From a virus, in the IMG/VR virus record IMGVR_UViG_3300048928_000194, positions 1 through 34,158 of that record: a DNA stretch of 34,158 nt; one strand, written 5' to 3'. Below are positions 52-33,993 of the stretch, piece after piece. The notes beneath the pieces are model-generated. The model worked only from the letters and a program-made list of their open reading frames with translations, made no database searches and was not told the DNA's origin. Both the position numbers and the translations under genes were made by a program. Each line of letters starts with the position of its first letter. Positions within the stretch are counted from its first letter, which is position 1.

Positions 52-127
52 GGCCCCTTAGCTCAGTGGTTAGAGCAGGCGACTCATAATCGCTTGGTCG
101 TTGGTTCAAACCCAACAGGGGCCACCA
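52..127 (+). tRNA. ileX/ileY-like: tRNA-Ile2 (anticodon CAU, read as lysidine-modified)
   Basis: This 76-nt cloverleaf has acceptor arms GGCCCCT and AGGGGCC, discriminator A and an encoded CCA. Anticodon CAT is at 85-87 in loop CTCATAA, and the T loop is TTCAAAC. The body matches the enterobacterial minor isoleucine tRNA, whose C34 is changed to lysidine so that it reads AUA, rather than a methionine tRNA. The 5' half (52-81) is host DNA. The 3' half lies in the att core and is supplied by the phage, so the gene stays intact after integration. A TATAAT hexamer at 36-41 is a plausible -10 element. Confidence 0.95.
82..127 (+). repeat. attL: attL core (46-bp direct repeat)
   Basis: These bases, from the anticodon-stem side through CCA, are identical to 33948-33993. 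Similarity continues imperfectly beyond the core through the terminator. Upstream of base 82 the two copies diverge, which places strand exchange inside the tRNA 3' half. Confidence 0.95.
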
Positions 128-12348: not shown

Positions 12349-13425
12349 ATGTCTATAAAGCAATTTTTTGATACACGTGATATAAAAGATAATCTTAATC
12401 GGTACGTTCTTGCCATGCATGAAATGCCAACTAATAACAATTTTGATAAGGAACGGAACTCCAAATTACTCAACATGCTGGGTCATTTTATAAGAGAACC
12501 AACATACTGGGATGAAAGAACACAATCCAGCATAGAATCTATAGGCGAAAGTTTTAGAGAACACGTTGCGTCTCTCACTATTACACGAGACGCTTTAAAT
12601 CTAACTTTTGCATTATCTTTGCGTTTTGTTTTAGAAGCTTCTTTGTTCGGTCAGTCCCAAGATAGCACACTACCTTTCAAAGTAATGCAGGACTTTGCTG
12701 AATATAATATTCATCATTTTGATGAACTGAGTCGAAGTCAGATTAGGTACGCAATTTATGAAATGCCAATAAACGTTGTTCGTGCATTTATAGCTAACGA
12801 TGAAGTTAATAGCTACGTACAATTTATTGATGCATTGCAAAAAGCTAAAGCCCTACAAGAGGTTTGGATTGCTGAACTTGAAGAGAAGAAAAAACGAGTA
12901 GAAGAGCTGAATGAAACACTCACAAAACAAGAGTCAGCATTCAATTTTGTTGGTTTGTATGCAGGTTTTGCAAAATTAGGAAGAATTAAGGCTAAAGAGC
13001 TACACTGGTCAAGGTTAGCTATGTTCGCGTTAGGCGCTTTGATGCCAGCACCACTGATTTATGAGATTATTTATGGTGGTAATTTAATTAATCCTGACGT
13101 AGGCGTTAATGGTTTAATTAAAATAATACCCATTGCATCAATAACACTCATCCTCATATATTATTTCAGGGTTGCGCTCGGCAATTACAATTCAGTAAGG
13201 GCGCAGGTGATGCAAATTGAACTAAGAAAAAGCTTATGTAGATTCATTCAAAGTTACGCCGACTACGCAAAAGAATTACCTAGAGAAAACACAGCATTGC
13301 TTTCAAAATTTGAAGATGTCATTTTCTCTAACATCATGACATCTGAAGAAAAAACCCCATCTACATTTGATGGGATAGAGCAGTTAGCCTCACTTCTTTC
13401 ATCTATTAAAGGTGGCAAGAATTAA
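12349..13425 (+). CDS. Unrecognised two-TM coiled-coil protein, lysogenic cargo between S and V
   Basis: I do not recognise this 358-aa protein. The N-terminal 160 residues are helical and soluble. A coiled coil rich in Lys/Glu follows (about 162-196, AELEEKKKRVEELNETL). Two membrane helices come next, at about 222-242 (LAMFALGALMPAPLIYEIIY) and 256-277 (IIPIASITLILIYYF), and then about 80 soluble residues. A GAGG ribosome site lies nine bases before the start, and its own terminator follows. It is AT-rich and opposite in direction to the late genes, so it is probably expressed in the lysogen. A membrane-anchored exclusion or defence protein is possible, but no motif proves it. Confidence 0.85.
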   Translation: MSIKQFFDTRDIKDNLNRYVLAMHEMPTNNNFDKERNSKLLNMLGHFIREPTYWDERTQSSIESIGESFREHVASLTITRDALNLTFALSLRFVLEASLFGQSQDSTLPFKVMQDFAEYNIHHFDELSRSQIRYAIYEMPINVVRAFIANDEVNSYVQFIDALQKAKALQEVWIAELEEKKKRVEELNETLTKQESAFNFVGLYAGFAKLGRIKAKELHWSRLAMFALGALMPAPLIYEIIYGGNLINPDVGVNGLIKIIPIASITLILIYYFRVALGNYNSVRAQVMQIELRKSLCRFIQSYADYAKELPRENTALLSKFEDVIFSNIMTSEEKTPSTFDGIEQLASLLSSIKGGKN

Positions 13426-23049: not shown

Positions 23050-24390
23050 CTAAAATTCTCTCTGCAGAAACGATCTCACTTGTTGACGAAAACGCTCACA
23101 CTCTTCCGGTTTTAAATTTTCAAGGTATCTGTAAACACGATTCTCATCCCACCCATTACCGTATGTTTTAACTACACCACGATATGCTTGTTTATCTCGA
23201 TTTTTCTCTCCATTAATGCGCACCCGTGGAATGCTAAGATCAGCCTCGTATGCTTGATAAAAATCTTTTTCGATACTTTGGAATGGTATGCAAAGTGTAT
23301 TATTACCCGCAGCGTGACGCAATTGGGCTTGGTCTCCATCTAATATCGACATTACGTTTTCCTGCGTAGAAAAAAAATTCTCTTCCTTATTTCGACGCAT
23401 TAGATCTATAACATTAGACCCACCACCAACATATATTATTTTATAAGTATAAAAATATTCATTTTTTACTGAATCTATAATATATTCAAGAAATCCTTGC
23501 AAAGTATCATCTTCGGTCAAGATATATTTATCCCACCCCTTGAACCCAAACAATATGCTTTTGATATAATTGTACGAACGCCTTTCTATTAGTGTACCTC
23601 CTTCATTCTCTGACATATAATAGAGTTCATCATTGTGAAGTGTTTGCATCAAGGCAAGAGAATGTGTAGTAAAAAGAATATTAACAAAATGTTCTCGACA
23701 AAAATCCCTCAGAATCTTCACAAGGTGAATTTGTGCTGATGAATCCAATGATATATCAATTTCGTCGATAACAATTAATCTACGCTTGAGATCAATCATT
23801 CTGTACAAATTTAATACAAAGTATTCCCCAGAACTAAAGTAATCTTCTCTGATATAAGTTCCATTATCATTGATTCTAAAGTAATACTTTTCACTTTTAA
23901 CTGAAAAAGATTTAAGATTATTATATGATTCTGTTTGATATACAAAATTTAATATTCTAATCAAATCAACTGGAGTTTCAAATGTCTCAAATGCAATACT
24001 TTTTCTTAATTCAGTGTCAATTTTACTAAGCGCTGGGAAATTATTAAATCTCATTCCATGAGGGATTGGCAACTCTACATATAAATTATTTTTTATATAA
24101 TCAGGAACAATTTGTTTTGTATCTATCGCTTTTAACTTACTATCATAAAAATATGTCACTGACTCCCCACCAATAATATACTCAATAACACTCCCGCTAT
24201 TAAAAATATATTTTGAAGAAGTCTTCAAAAAAGTATCTGCTGATTGAAGGTTTTTTATCGCTTTAATTAAAGTTGTTTTCCCAGTTCCATTTTTACCTAC
24301 TATACACATCAATCTATTCTCAGAGAGATCGATTGAAAAAGACATTCTGTAAACATGCTGTATGTTACGTATATCAATAGAAATATTCAT
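23050..24390 (-). CDS. OLD-like ATPase-TOPRIM protein, predicted retron effector
   Basis: This 446-aa protein joins an ABC/SMC-type ATPase to a TOPRIM nuclease domain. Visible motifs are Walker A GKNGTGKTT (32-40), signature-like SSGEYF (about 184-189), Walker B RLIVIDEID (about 203-211) and switch His in TTHS (about 242). The TOPRIM part has acidic LTEDDT (about 291-296), VGGGSNV (about 325) and LDGD (about 348-351). The layout is that of OLD nucleases, as in P2 Old and the effector of retron Eco8. It starts three bases after the RT stop, so both come from one transcript. The likely role is a toxin held in check by RT-msDNA and released by phage infection; that is inferred from known retrons. 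Confidence 0.85.
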   Translation of the reverse strand: MNISIDIRNIQHVYRMSFSIDLSENRLMCIVGKNGTGKTTLIKAIKNLQSADTFLKTSSKYIFNSGSVIEYIIGGESVTYFYDSKLKAIDTKQIVPDYIKNNLYVELPIPHGMRFNNFPALSKIDTELRKSIAFETFETPVDLIRILNFVYQTESYNNLKSFSVKSEKYYFRINDNGTYIREDYFSSGEYFVLNLYRMIDLKRRLIVIDEIDISLDSSAQIHLVKILRDFCREHFVNILFTTHSLALMQTLHNDELYYMSENEGGTLIERRSYNYIKSILFGFKGWDKYILTEDDTLQGFLEYIIDSVKNEYFYTYKIIYVGGGSNVIDLMRRNKEENFFSTQENVMSILDGDQAQLRHAAGNNTLCIPFQSIEKDFYQAYEADLSIPRVRINGEKNRDKQAYRGVVKTYGNGWDENRVYRYLENLKPEECERFRQQVRSFLQREF

Positions 24391-24393
24391 AAG

Positions 24394-25386
24394 TTAATTC
24401 GCACTTTTATAAAAAACCATATCCACAACTGTATTTCCATATTTTTTTCTTAATTTATTTAGATAACTTTTATCTATTGTATTAATATGGTTAAGTAGTC
24501 CGGATATAACCCCCACCCCTTTTTCTTCTACTTCTCTGTCACTGAGAACATCAGTTTTTTTTATTTTAGGATCAGATTTAACAGCTTTTATGAATTTGCT
24601 TTTATCGGTGACATAGAAATGAATTAAATGTTCAACTCTTTTTTTAACTCGAATATCAACAGAAATTTTCCCTGAAGGTAAAACTACCATGCCGAGTAAT
24701 TTTATTTTATTACCCTTTCGAACTAACTTTGTCTTTTGCTCATTGATTTTAAATACGCCCCCATTAAAATCCCTCAACATATTTCTGATAATAACAGGCA
24801 CATCATTAAAAGCTTCATCACTTGGAGAGGAAACTATTATATCATCAGCATATCTAGAGTATTTAAAACCTAGAGAAAAACAAAGTTGTTCAAGAGTATT
24901 ATCAAATTCATATAGACAAGCATTGCTTAAGGATGGAGAGGTAGCAAAACCAACAGGAAGAGAATCTTCTATAATAAGATAATTTAACAATACCTCGATA
25001 TAATCTCGAAGATCTGTAATAGGTATATTATCAATATTATTGACCATTATCTTCTTTATAAACTCACCTGAGATCGAGGCAAAAAAATCTTTAATATCAG
25101 TATTAAAAAAAACCTTACTGTCGGCATGAATTTTTATTGCATCATAAGTACTGCTACCTTTTCTATATGAAAAAACAACATTTTCATTCACTTTTAAATA
25201 TGAAAGAATAAATTCATTGATAAACTTATGATATTCTTTTAGCTTAGTATTAGGCTCAATAACTTCCCGCCCATCAAAATGACTAAACTTAATTTCTTGA
25301 GAAGGATTAAAAGATAAGAAGTTTTGGAAAGAATCCTTTTCGTAAAAGGCAATATTAAACGCTTTTTCGAGTGTTAAAGGTTTCAT
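24394..25386 (-). CDS. Retron-type reverse transcriptase
   Basis: A reverse transcriptase of 330 aa from the ATG at MKPLTLEKAFN; a TTG 15 codons upstream is also open, and neither start has a clear ribosome site. The polymerase motifs are FFNTDIKDFFASI (A), LPVGFATSPSLSNA (B) and YSRYADDIIVSS (C), the last with catalytic YADD at 179-182. There is no maturase or endonuclease domain, so it is not a group II intron protein. The VTG triad usual in retron RTs is replaced by LLG (KLLGMVVLPSGKISV). It follows a structured non-coding stretch and precedes an OLD-like gene, the retron order. Function predicted: copying the adjacent RNA into msDNA. Confidence 0.87.
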   Translation of the reverse strand: MKPLTLEKAFNIAFYEKDSFQNFLSFNPSQEIKFSHFDGREVIEPNTKLKEYHKFINEFILSYLKVNENVVFSYRKGSSTYDAIKIHADSKVFFNTDIKDFFASISGEFIKKIMVNNIDNIPITDLRDYIEVLLNYLIIEDSLPVGFATSPSLSNACLYEFDNTLEQLCFSLGFKYSRYADDIIVSSPSDEAFNDVPVIIRNMLRDFNGGVFKINEQKTKLVRKGNKIKLLGMVVLPSGKISVDIRVKKRVEHLIHFYVTDKSKFIKAVKSDPKIKKTDVLSDREVEEKGVGVISGLLNHINTIDKSYLNKLRKKYGNTVVDMVFYKSAN

Positions 25387-25468
25387 TAGGTGACAAATTT
25401 TATTTATTAAATTTTTGGATGGGATATGCAAAAATGGCAGAGATCAATAGTAAACCAATCGCCTATTT

Positions 25469-25668
25469 GCAAGATAACCTTTATCGAGGTTCAAAGCCTT
25501 ACTTCCTGTACATACCTTCACCAAACGGTAGAAGGTAGTACAAGAGTAACACTACATAAAGGCCTGTAGAGGCCAACATTATTGACTGGAGATGCTCCTA
25601 GTCGTTGGCATGAACTCACTCTAGATCAGAATTTAACCTTTGACAAGCTTTATAAAGGTATACGTTGC
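25469..25668 (-). ncRNA. Candidate retron msr-msd RNA
   Basis: About 200 bases upstream of the RT fold into retron-like elements on the minus strand. Outer arms at 25652-25668 and 25469-25484 both contain GCAA and CCTTTAT pairing blocks, a likely a1/a2 stem. Hairpin 25584-25603 (GACT-GGAG/CTCC-AGTC) and hairpin 25561-25574 (GGCC/GGCC) resemble msr stems. A long hairpin at 25507-25542, with stem blocks TGTAC, TACCTTC and ACC around loop GTTT, resembles the msd. The branching G and the exact ends cannot be fixed from sequence alone. Confidence 0.7.
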
Positions 25669-25669
25669 C

Positions 25670-25852
25670 CTAGTCTCTTAATGGATGATTGGATAGCGCG
25701 CTATAGAAAGGCATTAAATTATGTTTAACCAGTTCAGCAATTAAATCTAAGGCTATTTCGCGATCCCTTTCATGACAGGTTCCCTCAGTAGTCAGACGCG
25801 CGATCAACTCAACACGCTCAAGTATGACCTGTTCTTTTAATTCGTTTCTCAC
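25670..25852 (-). CDS. Small SOS-controlled phage protein
   Basis: A 60-aa protein starting at GTG (read MRNELKEQVILERVELIARL), chosen because GGGGGAA lies six bases upstream; the frame is open further up but would pass through the LexA box. It is helical and acidic, ending SALSNHPLRD. Its promoter carries a near-consensus LexA box 21 bases before the start. In 186 this position, downstream of A and next to cos, holds the LexA-controlled orf95/tum unit, whose Tum protein inactivates CI. This protein is much shorter than Tum (about 146 aa) and I see no clear similarity, so its role is unknown. The retron-like RNA begins directly after its stop. Confidence 0.65.
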   Translation of the reverse strand: MRNELKEQVILERVELIARLTTEGTCHERDREIALDLIAELVKHNLMPFYSALSNHPLRD

Positions 25853-25872
25853 AGAACTTCCCCCACATGAGA

Positions 25873-25892
25873 TACTGTATAAACATACAGTA
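25873..25892 (-). promoter_or_regulatory. LexA (SOS) box
   Basis: TACTGTATAAACATACAGTA has the full CTGT-N8-ACAG core with AT-rich centre and matching TA flanks, very close to the E. coli consensus. On the minus strand it overlaps a TATACT -10 element, the usual way LexA blocks transcription. It lies just upstream of the 60-aa gene. Confidence 0.9.
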
Positions 25893-25972
25893 TAATGATT
25901 GTTAGCACAAAGTGAAATAAAAAAATCAATCATAACCCGTTGTATCATCGAGACATAAATTTGAATGTCTGC

Positions 25973-28189
25973 TCAATTTTCTTTCACCATTCCAGACAAA
26001 ACGGCAACACGGGCAAGGATTTCCTTAGCCTTTGCAAAAAAAGGTGGGGTGGTAGGAAAAACCTCTCCCGCTTCGGATCCCCGACACCATTTCCCGTTAA
26101 AACAGCTTTTGCCATGCGCCATTAAGTGCAGCGCTTCTCCCCGGCTTATAGTGATGCCGGTTAAAATCTGTATTTCGTCAATCGTCCTGGTTATAGCGCC
26201 GTCCTGTGCTGGCGTTCCGTGGATAAAATTTCGGCGCTCGGTCGGTTTTTTATCTCTTAACCGGTTCGTTAGTTGCCGTCGCTGATATCGATTTAATTGT
26301 TTTGATAAATCCAGCTCCGGAGGATCGCTTTCGCCCCCCGTACAGTTATTGACAGAACTCCGAGAGGGCGCGGTCGCGCCCTTAAAGTCAACGGCCAAAT
26401 CAACGGCATGCTTCGGAACAATTTTCCACTGCGTGAGGCGGGTCAGAATAGGGGAGGCAGCGCCGACCGTTGCGTCGTAGACGCCACGAATGCAGACGTT
26501 CTCTTCACCGTACTGGTTAAACTCGGCGCGCGGCTCGTAAAGCGTACGCACCTGCAATTCGTCACGACGCACGAACGCGCCGCCCTGCGCATTGACATAG
26601 CCTGCCCAGTCACCTGCGTCAGCGGCATCATGTACCGCTGCAAATTCGACACTCAGACCGTGGGCGGTCTCGGTATCAGCCAGACGCCGTAATTCACGGT
26701 ATACGGTCACCGGTGCGCCACCGATAAACTGAAACTGACGGATGTGCCAGCGAGCCGCCCAGGCAGAAACTGCGGGAGCAGTCTCTTTCAGCAGCTCACC
26801 GCTTTCATCGTCTTTCTCACTGTCGAGAGCGTAACCATCAATATTTTTTGAGATGTATTTAGCAACATAGCCCGTTGCGCTTCCCTTCTCCGGATCGATG
26901 GCTTCAGCATGAAAACGTGCCTTTTTCGCCTTGTCACTCCTGAGCTCACTTTCATCTTCCTGCCACGCATAATCACGGATGATCTTACGCACGCGCTCAA
27001 CATCCTCCGGCAGCATAAACATCAGCATGTGCCAGTGCGGGGTAGCGTCGTGGTGTGGTTCCGCAACGCGGATGCCAAATATGCGGATATCTTCCCGATG
27101 GAGTTTGGCGCGGATGCGCGCCCAGAGTGAGGTTAAATAGCCCTGAGTGTCGGAGGGGCTCGCGCCGTTCCACTTGTGGTTACGGTAGCCCGCTTTTGTT
27201 GTGGCGTGATATTTCGACGGCGCGGTCAGCGTATAGAACTCACCCACATAGCCCAGCTCGTTGCAGATATTTTCAAAGCCACGAATGCGGGTCATCAGCT
27301 CGCAGCGGCGAATGGCCGGATTAGCGACCGAGCCATCATATTTATCGATGAGGCTGATGCGGTTCCCGTCTTCGTCCTCGAGCTCCAGCCCTTTCAGAAA
27401 TTCGCGGGTGCGCCGCTTCTGCTCGCGCCAGTCAGTCACGCAGTTTTTACTCGCGTAAACATGCTTTTTCTTGCTGACGTTACCGACGGCAATTTGCAGA
27501 TGTTCACGCCATGCAGCTGCGACCCGGCGCAACCGGCCACGCCACCATGTTTCGTTAAACATGCGCATGACAGCCGGGGCAATTTCGTCCTGGCCTGCAT
27601 ATTTCTTTGTTACGCGCTCCCAGTGGGGCGGCGTTACGTTGAACTGCAACGCAATCATTCCGGCGCGCATATACCAGCGATACAGCGTTTTCAGCTCACC
27701 GGCTTCGGTGTCGTCATTGTCTGCCAGTTCTGAGCGGATAAAGTTGGCGATATCAGCCGACAGCAGATCGATATCGGCTTTAGACATATCCGGAAGCCGG
27801 TTGTAACGCGCAACCATATTCACCAGACGCGACGCCATATACTGCTGATCTTTTGTGTCGAAATGTCCGTTGAATACAGCGGCAGAAACGTCGCTCCTGA
27901 TGCCGGAGGCCTGGTATTTTCTTGCGACCAGTTCAAGGCGCGGCAATGCTTTTTTGCAGAAGATGATTAAAAAGGTATTGGCTCGCTGACTGTCATGATG
28001 TTGCTCCAGCGTGGAAGCAGTGCGCATCACGTCATAGCGCACACATTCAGGCTGGAGGGATAACGCTTTGCGCGCATGCAGCAACGCCGCAATCATGCGA
28101 TCGCGGCGATGCTGTTCTGAATAGGTCAGATAAGGGCTGGCTATTGCTGAACGAGGAGCATTCCAGGCGTAAGCGTAAGAAATTGCCAC
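25973..28189 (-). CDS. A: Replication initiation endonuclease gpA
   Basis: The 738-aa protein (P2 A is 761 aa) starts rolling-circle replication by nicking the origin in cis and joining covalently to the 5' end. The metal-binding histidine motif ATPHWHMLMFM is at about 380-390. The paired active-site tyrosines are in TGYVAKYISKNID (about 441-445), as in P2 (Tyr450/454). In P2 and 186 the origin lies inside this gene; I could not locate the nick site here. It directly follows the small zinc-finger gene in the early operon running from apl. Confidence 0.96.
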   Translation of the reverse strand: MAISYAYAWNAPRSAIASPYLTYSEQHRRDRMIAALLHARKALSLQPECVRYDVMRTASTLEQHHDSQRANTFLIIFCKKALPRLELVARKYQASGIRSDVSAAVFNGHFDTKDQQYMASRLVNMVARYNRLPDMSKADIDLLSADIANFIRSELADNDDTEAGELKTLYRWYMRAGMIALQFNVTPPHWERVTKKYAGQDEIAPAVMRMFNETWWRGRLRRVAAAWREHLQIAVGNVSKKKHVYASKNCVTDWREQKRRTREFLKGLELEDEDGNRISLIDKYDGSVANPAIRRCELMTRIRGFENICNELGYVGEFYTLTAPSKYHATTKAGYRNHKWNGASPSDTQGYLTSLWARIRAKLHREDIRIFGIRVAEPHHDATPHWHMLMFMLPEDVERVRKIIRDYAWQEDESELRSDKAKKARFHAEAIDPEKGSATGYVAKYISKNIDGYALDSEKDDESGELLKETAPAVSAWAARWHIRQFQFIGGAPVTVYRELRRLADTETAHGLSVEFAAVHDAADAGDWAGYVNAQGGAFVRRDELQVRTLYEPRAEFNQYGEENVCIRGVYDATVGAASPILTRLTQWKIVPKHAVDLAVDFKGATAPSRSSVNNCTGGESDPPELDLSKQLNRYQRRQLTNRLRDKKPTERRNFIHGTPAQDGAITRTIDEIQILTGITISRGEALHLMAHGKSCFNGKWCRGSEAGEVFPTTPPFFAKAKEILARVAVLSGMVKEN

Positions 28190-30218: not shown

Positions 30219-30794
30219 ATGAAAATTGAAAGCCTTGGATTAAATAACGAAGAAGTCTTGGATAGGATTTGCGAGGCTTATGGTTTTTCTCAGAAGATTC
30301 AATTAGCTAGGCATTTTGAAATTGCATCTAGCTCACTCGCTAACAGGTACAGCCGCGATTCTATTTCTTATGATTTTATTGTGCATTGCGCCCTAGAAAC
30401 AGGTGCAAATCTCGCGTGGCTTCTCACTGGCAAGGGATCACCAGCAATCGGAAACGCGAAAAACGATATCCAAATCGTAGAAAGATTCACATTAAGTGAA
30501 GAATCACTAGTGAGTGATGGCGATTTGAGCATTGCTGGTAAGTTCTTTAGCAAACATCTTACAAATCCGATTGCAGTCTACGCTGACGCAAAACTTCATT
30601 TCATCGAGCGAGACGCATCCCTGTCAGATGGAGAATGGCTCGTCGATATTGAAGGCGCTGTTAGCATCCGAGAACTAACGAAGCTGCCCGGCAAAAAACT
30701 GCATGTCGCTGGCGGTAAGGTTCCCTTTGAATGTGGGTTTGGCGACATTAAAGCGTTAGGTCGCGTGATGGGTGTGTATAGCGAGGTTAACTAA
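30219..30794 (+). CDS. cI: Lysogeny repressor CI (186 type)
   Basis: The 191-aa protein is nearly the length of 186 CI (192 aa). It has an N-terminal DNA-binding domain (about 1-70, with GFSQKIQLARHFEIASSSLANRY as HTH region) and a C-terminal oligomerisation domain (about 90-190, PIAVYADAKLHFIERD). It keeps the prophage silent. Unlike lambda CI it lacks a RecA-stimulated self-cleavage module; 186 uses Tum as an SOS antirepressor. The stop overlaps the int start (TAATG), so both come from one transcript. Confidence 0.93.
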   Translation: MKIESLGLNNEEVLDRICEAYGFSQKIQLARHFEIASSSLANRYSRDSISYDFIVHCALETGANLAWLLTGKGSPAIGNAKNDIQIVERFTLSEESLVSDGDLSIAGKFFSKHLTNPIAVYADAKLHFIERDASLSDGEWLVDIEGAVSIRELTKLPGKKLHVAGGKVPFECGFGDIKALGRVMGVYSEVN

Positions 30795-31789: not shown

Positions 31790-32803
31790 ATGAACATGAA
31801 ACCTCGGAAAAAAATCGTAAGGGTATTTTTTAGTTGGCAGAGCACCTTAGATAAAAAGCACAACACTGATTTTATAAGATATGCACTCAAAAAAGCAAAA
31901 ACCAGAATAGAGAGTAGTCAACATGAGATCGAAATATTATTAGATGAAGCAACGCGAAACGTACCAGGAAGTCCAGACATAGCTACAACAATACAAAGCA
32001 AAATCGCCCTATCGCAAATAGTCATTAGTGATATTACCATAATACAAGGACTTGATACCAAAAAATCATATCCTAATCCAAATGTAATGTTTGAATTAGG
32101 GTATGCCGTCTCAGAATTAGGTTGGAATAGAATTATTGCGCTATCTAATGATCTTTATAATTTCAAACCTGAAGATTTACCTTTTGATATAAATAAGCAA
32201 AGAGTATCACCTTATAATTCTGAAAATGGAAAAGATAAGCTTATAGAATTATTATGCATCGCTATCACAACAATCTTAGAGCACAATCCTAAAACACCAC
32301 AAGAATTAAGAGGAGTCACTCCAGAGAAAATTAAACATGAAAAAGACTTAGAAAATATTAGCTTACTTATGAGTTATATTCACACTCATACTATAGAAAA
32401 TTTCCTCGAGCAATTACCAAACATCTTTATCTACGAAGCTGGGATATGTTGGGCTTCATTCCACGCTTACATGAATGCCAATTCATTTCATATTTATGAT
32501 GAAAGCATCGCCACTCTACTGAAATCTTTATATAATAACTGGTCTAACATATTAGAAATTGGATTACCATACTATGAAAACGTTAACGGTAGCATTCACC
32601 AAACATTCAAAAAAAGAAGAAGATATGACCACCTAAATGGAACCGAGGCAAATAACGCATGGAATGTAATTGGAAAACTTGCAATGGATATGCAAATTAC
32701 ATTTAAGAGACTTTTAGAAAACATTCACAATAACTACATTGAGATAAACATCAATGAAACAAACGCCAAAGCTTGGAATGATATAAGAAAAAACAGACCG
32801 TAA
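31790..32803 (+). CDS. TIR-like domain protein, predicted defence effector
   Basis: A 337-aa protein with an N-terminal TIR-like Rossmann-type domain (about 9-150). Visible parts are VRVFFSWQS (11-18), LLDEATRNVPGSPDI (50-64), VISDITII (78-85) and NPNVMFELGYA (96-106), where Glu102 is placed like the catalytic Glu of NAD-cleaving TIR enzymes. The remaining 180 residues are helical with no recognised fold, possibly a sensor. It starts three (or nine) bases after int and so may share the cI-int transcript and be made in the lysogen. AT-rich composition indicates acquisition. Biochemical activity is inferred. Confidence 0.75.
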   Translation: MNMKPRKKIVRVFFSWQSTLDKKHNTDFIRYALKKAKTRIESSQHEIEILLDEATRNVPGSPDIATTIQSKIALSQIVISDITIIQGLDTKKSYPNPNVMFELGYAVSELGWNRIIALSNDLYNFKPEDLPFDINKQRVSPYNSENGKDKLIELLCIAITTILEHNPKTPQELRGVTPEKIKHEKDLENISLLMSYIHTHTIENFLEQLPNIFIYEAGICWASFHAYMNANSFHIYDESIATLLKSLYNNWSNILEIGLPYYENVNGSIHQTFKKRRRYDHLNGTEANNAWNVIGKLAMDMQITFKRLLENIHNNYIEININETNAKAWNDIRKNRP

Positions 32804-32881: not shown

Positions 32882-33286
32882 CTAGAACCTGAATTCTAAA
32901 AATCGTTGAGGAATTGTATTAGGTGGAGAACGGGCTAACCTTCTCGAAGCTTTGAGTAGTTGGATTGTAGTAACGGAAAACAATGCATCACAAATCGAGA
33001 AATTTTGGGGTGCATTTTTTACTGAGATGACAAAAGCTCTAACAAGACCATAATAAGGAAGAAGAAAAACAAAGTTCTGTATCTCTATCTTTCCGATATT
33101 TATCTTGGGATCGCTTAAAGAACGACCAACGATAACCCTCATAGCCTGATCAAGATAACTACTTTCTAGGCCATCATCGCTAGCATCAAAGCCTAAAGCA
33201 GCAGCCGCACGCGATAGCACCTCATGAATTCGATCAATGCTGATCGCTTCCAGGTTACCATTTCGCTTTGTGACTAGTACTTGCAT
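32882..33286 (-). CDS. ATP-cone-like fragment or small protein, cargo
   Basis: A 134-aa frame with a good ribosome site (GAGGAAAGG, seven bases upstream). Residues 1-31 (VLVTKRNG.LE.I..DRIHEVL..AA) resemble the N-terminal ATP-cone of class I ribonucleotide reductases and ATP-cone regulators. After about residue 70 the similarity stops and the sequence looks unlike a folded family member, which suggests truncation or frameshift decay. It could instead be a small nucleotide-sensing protein in its own right. Confidence 0.5.
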   Translation of the reverse strand: MQVLVTKRNGNLEAISIDRIHEVLSRAAAALGFDASDDGLESSYLDQAMRVIVGRSLSDPKINIGKIEIQNFVFLLPYYGLVRAFVISVKNAPQNFSICDALFSVTTIQLLKASRRLARSPPNTIPQRFLEFRF

Positions 33287-33947: not shown

Positions 33948-33993
33948 ACTCATAATCGCTTGGTCGTTGGTTCAAACCCAACAGGGGCCACCA
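33948..33993 (+). repeat. attR: attR core (partial tRNA-Ile2 copy)
   Basis: These 46 bases are identical to 82-127. The copy lacks the 5' half of the tRNA and is not a functional gene. Confidence 0.95.

Follow-up and report, generated by a model that had tools for sequence, protein, structure and literature searches.

In phage 186, the p95 promoter is LexA-regulated and drives Tum (PMC7708051), in which an antirepressor is fused to a DinI-like domain; in PSP3 and Fels-2 the two parts are split, and the antirepressor activity of the split PSP3 tum lies in its upstream half (PMC3121763). The retrons Ec67 and Ec86 were placed between cos and a terminator of a 186-related prophage by Dodd and Egan 1996 (cited in PMC6868368), a paper that mentions in its title a transcription terminator at the junction. 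The site behind tum is a known cargo bay, occupied by Ec86 and Ec67 in a 186-related prophage and by other defence systems elsewhere. How defence systems of prophages are kept quiet or raised in lysogens is, to our knowledge, poorly known.

The window analysed here, the whole 34,158 nt of IMG/VR virus record IMGVR_UViG_3300048928_000194, was found to be an entire P2/186-like prophage integrated in tRNA-Met (Table 1). On the minus strand, the gene order is gpA, a LexA box, a 60-aa gene with a GTG start, a retron ncRNA, a reverse transcriptase (RT) and an ATPase-Toprim effector, beyond which the portal gene lies on the plus strand. No near DNA match to the region was found in plasmids, and phages and E. 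coli matched only pieces of it. Between int and the attachment-site repeat, a 337-aa protein (31790-32803, plus strand) matched the CAP12/Pycsar TIR domain with an E-value of 2.5e-5, exactly at the Pfam cut-off, and is possibly a second defence gene of the prophage. A 358-aa protein (12349-13425, plus strand), encoded amid tail-region genes that run the other way, had no match in Pfam or PADLOC and is a possible accessory gene. The short open reading frame at 32882-33286 (minus strand), with a weak ATP-cone match under the Pfam cut-off (E = 0.0015), is perhaps a ribonucleotide reductase fragment within the prophage.

Table 1. Features of the window, with positions counted from its first nucleotide.
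Feature	Position	Strand	Evidence and remarks
Attachment-site repeat, copy 1	82-127		3' end of tRNA-Met, prophage boundary; 46-bp perfect direct repeat
ATPase-Toprim effector	23050-24390	-	PADLOC ATPase-Toprim_I-B, E 2.7e-177; Walker A and DGDQ motifs
Retron reverse transcriptase	24394-25386	-	PADLOC RT_I-B, E 1.4e-109; YADD motif; relatives 55-67% identical
Retron ncRNA (msr-msd) with a1/a2 stem	25465-25668	-	Core conserved in 11 retron relatives; fold; duplex analysis
tumN, stand-alone antirepressor module of 186 Tum, 60 aa	25670-25852	-	PHROG 189, E 8e-20; alignments
LexA (SOS) box, TACTGTATGTTTATACAGTA	25873-25892	-	Beyond chance; core box common to viral tumN loci
p95-like sigma70 promoter	25889-25916	-	Consensus scan and PWM
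gpA replication protein	25973-28189	-	Pfam Phage_GPA, E 7e-133; upstream neighbour of tumN, same strand
CI repressor	30219-30794	+	68% identity to 186 CI over 192 aa; expected TumN target
Attachment-site repeat, copy 2	33948-33993		46-bp perfect direct repeat with copy 1

The LexA box (TACTGTATAAACATACAGTA) matches the consensus TACTG(TA)5CAGTA at all but 2 of 20 positions, and none was obtained in 100 dinucleotide shuffles. The exact pattern CTGT-N8-ACAG occurs once in the 34 kb, and that single occurrence is this box. It overlaps the -10 element of a p95-like promoter consisting of TTCACT (25916-25911), a 16-nt spacer and TATACT (25894-25889). Scored with the same matrix, this promoter reached 8.9 as compared to 9.0 for 186 p95, and its position is that of the annotated p95 (U32222), where promoter and LexA site overlap as well. 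An earlier, sequence-only reading of this DNA had placed a near-consensus LexA box over the -10 element of the 60-aa gene, and these results bear it out. Among 147 viral tumN loci surveyed for a perfect core box no more than 220 nt upstream, all those with enough upstream DNA had one (144/144); the other three were cut by the contig end.

The 60-aa gene starts with GTG at 25852 and its TAG codon ends at 25670. Residues 1-47 of its product are conserved and align with the N-terminal 47 residues of 186 Tum, while the 13-residue C-terminal tail is divergent. Neither a DinI domain nor a DinI gene lies behind tumN in the window, and among the 147 viral tumN loci there were 56 at which DinI was not found, some few of these being cut short. 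About 60 distinct stand-alone versions of Tum, of 60-77 aa, exist, and in phages Midge, SW9, 613R3 and RCIP0057 dinI comes after a gene of 60 aa. Judged by its alignments, the 60-aa gene is the antirepressor half of 186 Tum, an SOS protein by which the repressor of that phage is inactivated; together with the conserved upstream boxes, the alignments identify it as an antirepressor with known relatives under SOS control. The earlier description of an SOS-regulated gene is narrowed from any SOS gene to the Tum antirepressor part specifically. The tie to the prophage's own exit proposed at the same time is stronger than could then be seen, because the gene is a Tum-type antirepressor and the CI of the prophage is 68% identical to that of 186.

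The idea that a full-length tum had been cut by the retron was weakened by the many stand-alone versions of similar length, but the last 13 residues of TumN do diverge. In E. coli 675SK2 (L024, 4596-4796), tum is annotated as truncated with its C-terminus missing, and the remaining 67 residues stop immediately ahead of the DinI half, suggesting that a cargo-bay boundary within tum is possible. Other E. coli genomes also matched this part of the gene.

The retron ncRNA begins with an a1/a2 stem, in which GCAA pairs with UUGC and then ACCUUUAU with AUAAAGGU; the stem starts at about position 25668, so that one or two bases separate it from the tumN stop. Folding of a 218-nt ncRNA gave -69.6 kcal/mol (z about -4.1). 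A weaker outer pairing of CCAAUC with GAUUGG would move the start of the duplex to about 25693, in the last tumN codons, although this six-pair extension across a loop could be chance. The core of the ncRNA is kept in relatives from P2-type and other settings, and covariation was slight (2 of 42 pairs by RNAalifold) because the core hardly varies. No Rfam retron family matched the ncRNA at the gathering score or with an E-value up to 5.

The RT start codon, ATG at 25386, was chosen by homology, and a longer TTG frame runs from 25431. NAxxH and VTG motifs are found in many retron RTs; the window RT, the only one scanned, contains neither literal pattern. The ATG of the effector follows the RT stop by three bases. 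With its RT, adjacent ATPase-Toprim effector and structured upstream ncRNA with a1/a2 repeats, the cassette is by composition a PADLOC type I-B retron. A retron-like RNA two bases behind the stop of the 60-aa gene had been predicted from the sequence, and a structured ncRNA is indeed predicted there; what follows the gene is a whole retron operon (ncRNA, RT and effector), however, and not an RNA alone.

No recognisable terminator was found on the minus strand between tumN and the ncRNA, in agreement with the earlier observation. Ahead of the RT start, that strand gave a single terminator-like match (25574-25561), which belongs to the ncRNA as one of its conserved hairpins, and t95a, the terminator behind tum in 186 (-18.5 kcal/mol), has no counterpart in the window. 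Nor did a rough PWM scan of 150 nt around the ncRNA start reveal a sigma70 promoter above chance between tumN and the ncRNA; the top score was 6.2, whereas shuffled sequences averaged 6.6 and had their 95th percentile at 9.8. Since the same matrix also misses strong promoters in most relatives, giving weak candidates alone, this is weak evidence against a separate promoter of the retron, and the separate strong promoter that the sequence-only reading named as its counter-case was not found by a simple scan of limited weight. A stronger-looking sigma70-like site was observed inside the ncRNA (25646-25618, minus strand; TTGTCA, 17 nt, TAGAGT; PWM 10.8), which could drive the RT and effector without the ncRNA.

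With neither a terminator nor an above-chance promoter between gene and ncRNA, the best-supported source of a full-length ncRNA is transcription that continues past tumN from the SOS promoter. The box, tumN, the junction, the missing terminator and the operon order are read directly from the DNA, and we consider that they are best explained by a retron in a 186-like bay that forms the distal part of a LexA-controlled transcript and is co-induced with TumN, a reading to which we give a probability of roughly 0.6. A type I-B retron would have entered the accessory-gene bay that a 186-like prophage has between its SOS operon and cos, and the junction would have taken away the DinI half of tum together with the downstream terminator, leaving the ncRNA, RT and effector as the distal end of the transcript from the p95-like promoter. 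On DNA damage, LexA, which presumably binds there, would be lifted from the promoter; TumN would block CI and bring about phage induction, and the read-through transcript would increase ncRNA, RT and effector jointly. Since the toxin and antitoxin components would go up in step, raised expression need not harm. The same DNA-damage alarm thus probably switches on both prophage and retron, and a coupling of SOS response and retron is plausible. The benefit may be that the cell is guarded against competing phages during replication of this phage. If the effector is triggered by invading phages alone, replication of the prophage would be protected by the cargo that it carries.

The strongest rival to this coupling is that the retron has a weak constitutive promoter of its own, at or inside the 3' end of tumN, so that the SOS promoter adds little and the location in the bay is incidental. 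The closest type I-B retrons lie in P2-type or other loci without a LexA box and must be expressed otherwise, from which it follows that SOS control cannot be needed by this retron family; in one of these relatives (L008), an extended -10 candidate would start transcription at a point matching the ncRNA 5' end. For Eco8, which belongs to another I-B branch, the tests used its native promoter, and unrelated cargo occurs in either orientation in the bay behind tum. Against this, the window DNA before the ncRNA scores no better than shuffles and is made of tumN codons, with nothing between there and the SOS promoter. We regard an own promoter with an incidental SOS link as possible, though rather unlikely. 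A bolder form of the coupling is doubtful: the retron would lack its own promoter and act as an SOS-induced defence, its components being made along with the antirepressor, so that protection from rivals would fall exactly in the period of prophage exit; the final codons of the antirepressor might also come from the a1 arm of the ncRNA, which would fuse the two functions at the level of the RNA. It is very improbable that the retron is nearly silent in the lysogen and is expressed mainly in the lytic phase from a CI-controlled early promoter through gpA, with SOS acting only indirectly via induction: gpA, tumN and the retron share a strand, the only hairpin behind gpA is weak (-5.5 kcal/mol, with a T-run) and the record of 186 mentions anti-termination in its early lytic operon, but a comparable weak hairpin lies behind gpA in 186, and the p95-like promoter is intact and nearer.

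In 47 of 66 distinct viral loci, the first open reading frame of at least 90 aa behind tum is on the tum strand (p = 0.0004, assuming random strands and independent loci, in a set that still holds related loci), and it often begins no more than 150 nt away. Ten bay cargo proteins were scanned, and among them were Lamassu LmuB, IetA, IetS, PD-Lambda-5 and DNA methyltransferases. Lamassu-like LmuB, IetAS and PD-Lambda-5 follow a LexA-tum module in the orientation of tum (L042, 8264-10201; L095, 6934-10270; L028, 6438-8868), and these other defence systems may therefore share the SOS transcript. A terminator-like hairpin was observed behind tum in L042. If the main bay of 186-like prophages lies in a LexA-controlled transcript, cargo loaded without a terminator becomes SOS-regulated. 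The window is a clean natural case, having one box, one short gene, no terminator and a retron, and it is the single natural example of the arrangement: no second LexA-tum-retron locus was found among the 147 viral tumN loci, among RT relatives from IMG/VR and a genome scan, in 395 genomes of one bacterial order, or by ncRNA-core scans.

Of the known systems, Retron-Eco8 is alike at the level of class, with an RT and an ATPase-Toprim (OLD-type) effector, and belongs to another branch, the best PADLOC models for the window being those of a 316-aa RT and a 443-aa effector. Searches of the PDB gave distant matches alone; the solved Eco8 RT is a weak match to the window RT, and the effector finds no retron structure. 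Triggering by a phage SSB, as in Eco8, cannot be assumed for the window retron. The P2-like defence hotspots (PMC9122126) likewise hold variable defence cargo, while a search of that article's text gave no mention of LexA, SOS, tum or terminators. The type I-B retrons of P2-type prophages (L003-L012, L176) share the ncRNA core, RT, effector and gpA-portal site with the window, and differ in that the upstream tum and LexA box are missing.

As compared to the 186 SOS operon (p95, tum, t95a, orf97, t95b), the window has the LexA box, the promoter position, the N-terminal module of Tum and the CI partner, whereas the DinI domain, t95a and orf97 are missing and a retron stands in their place. Ec86 (Eco1) and Ec67 (Eco2) likewise occupy the interval from the tum region to cos in a 186-like prophage. 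The Ec86 cassette of E. coli B REL606 is preceded on its own strand by a LexA box, a gene of 62 aa and a DinI gene; dinI is retained there, and some 1 kb of DNA, including a gene on the reverse strand, lies between it and the effector gene. The Ec86 prophage was reportedly found to be SOS-inducible in 1992. In the light of the window, Ec86 and Ec67 are worth reconsidering for a possible partial read-through. A retron behind a 186-type SOS region is thus known, and what is new in the window is that the retron is of type I-B and that both dinI and the terminator are gone.
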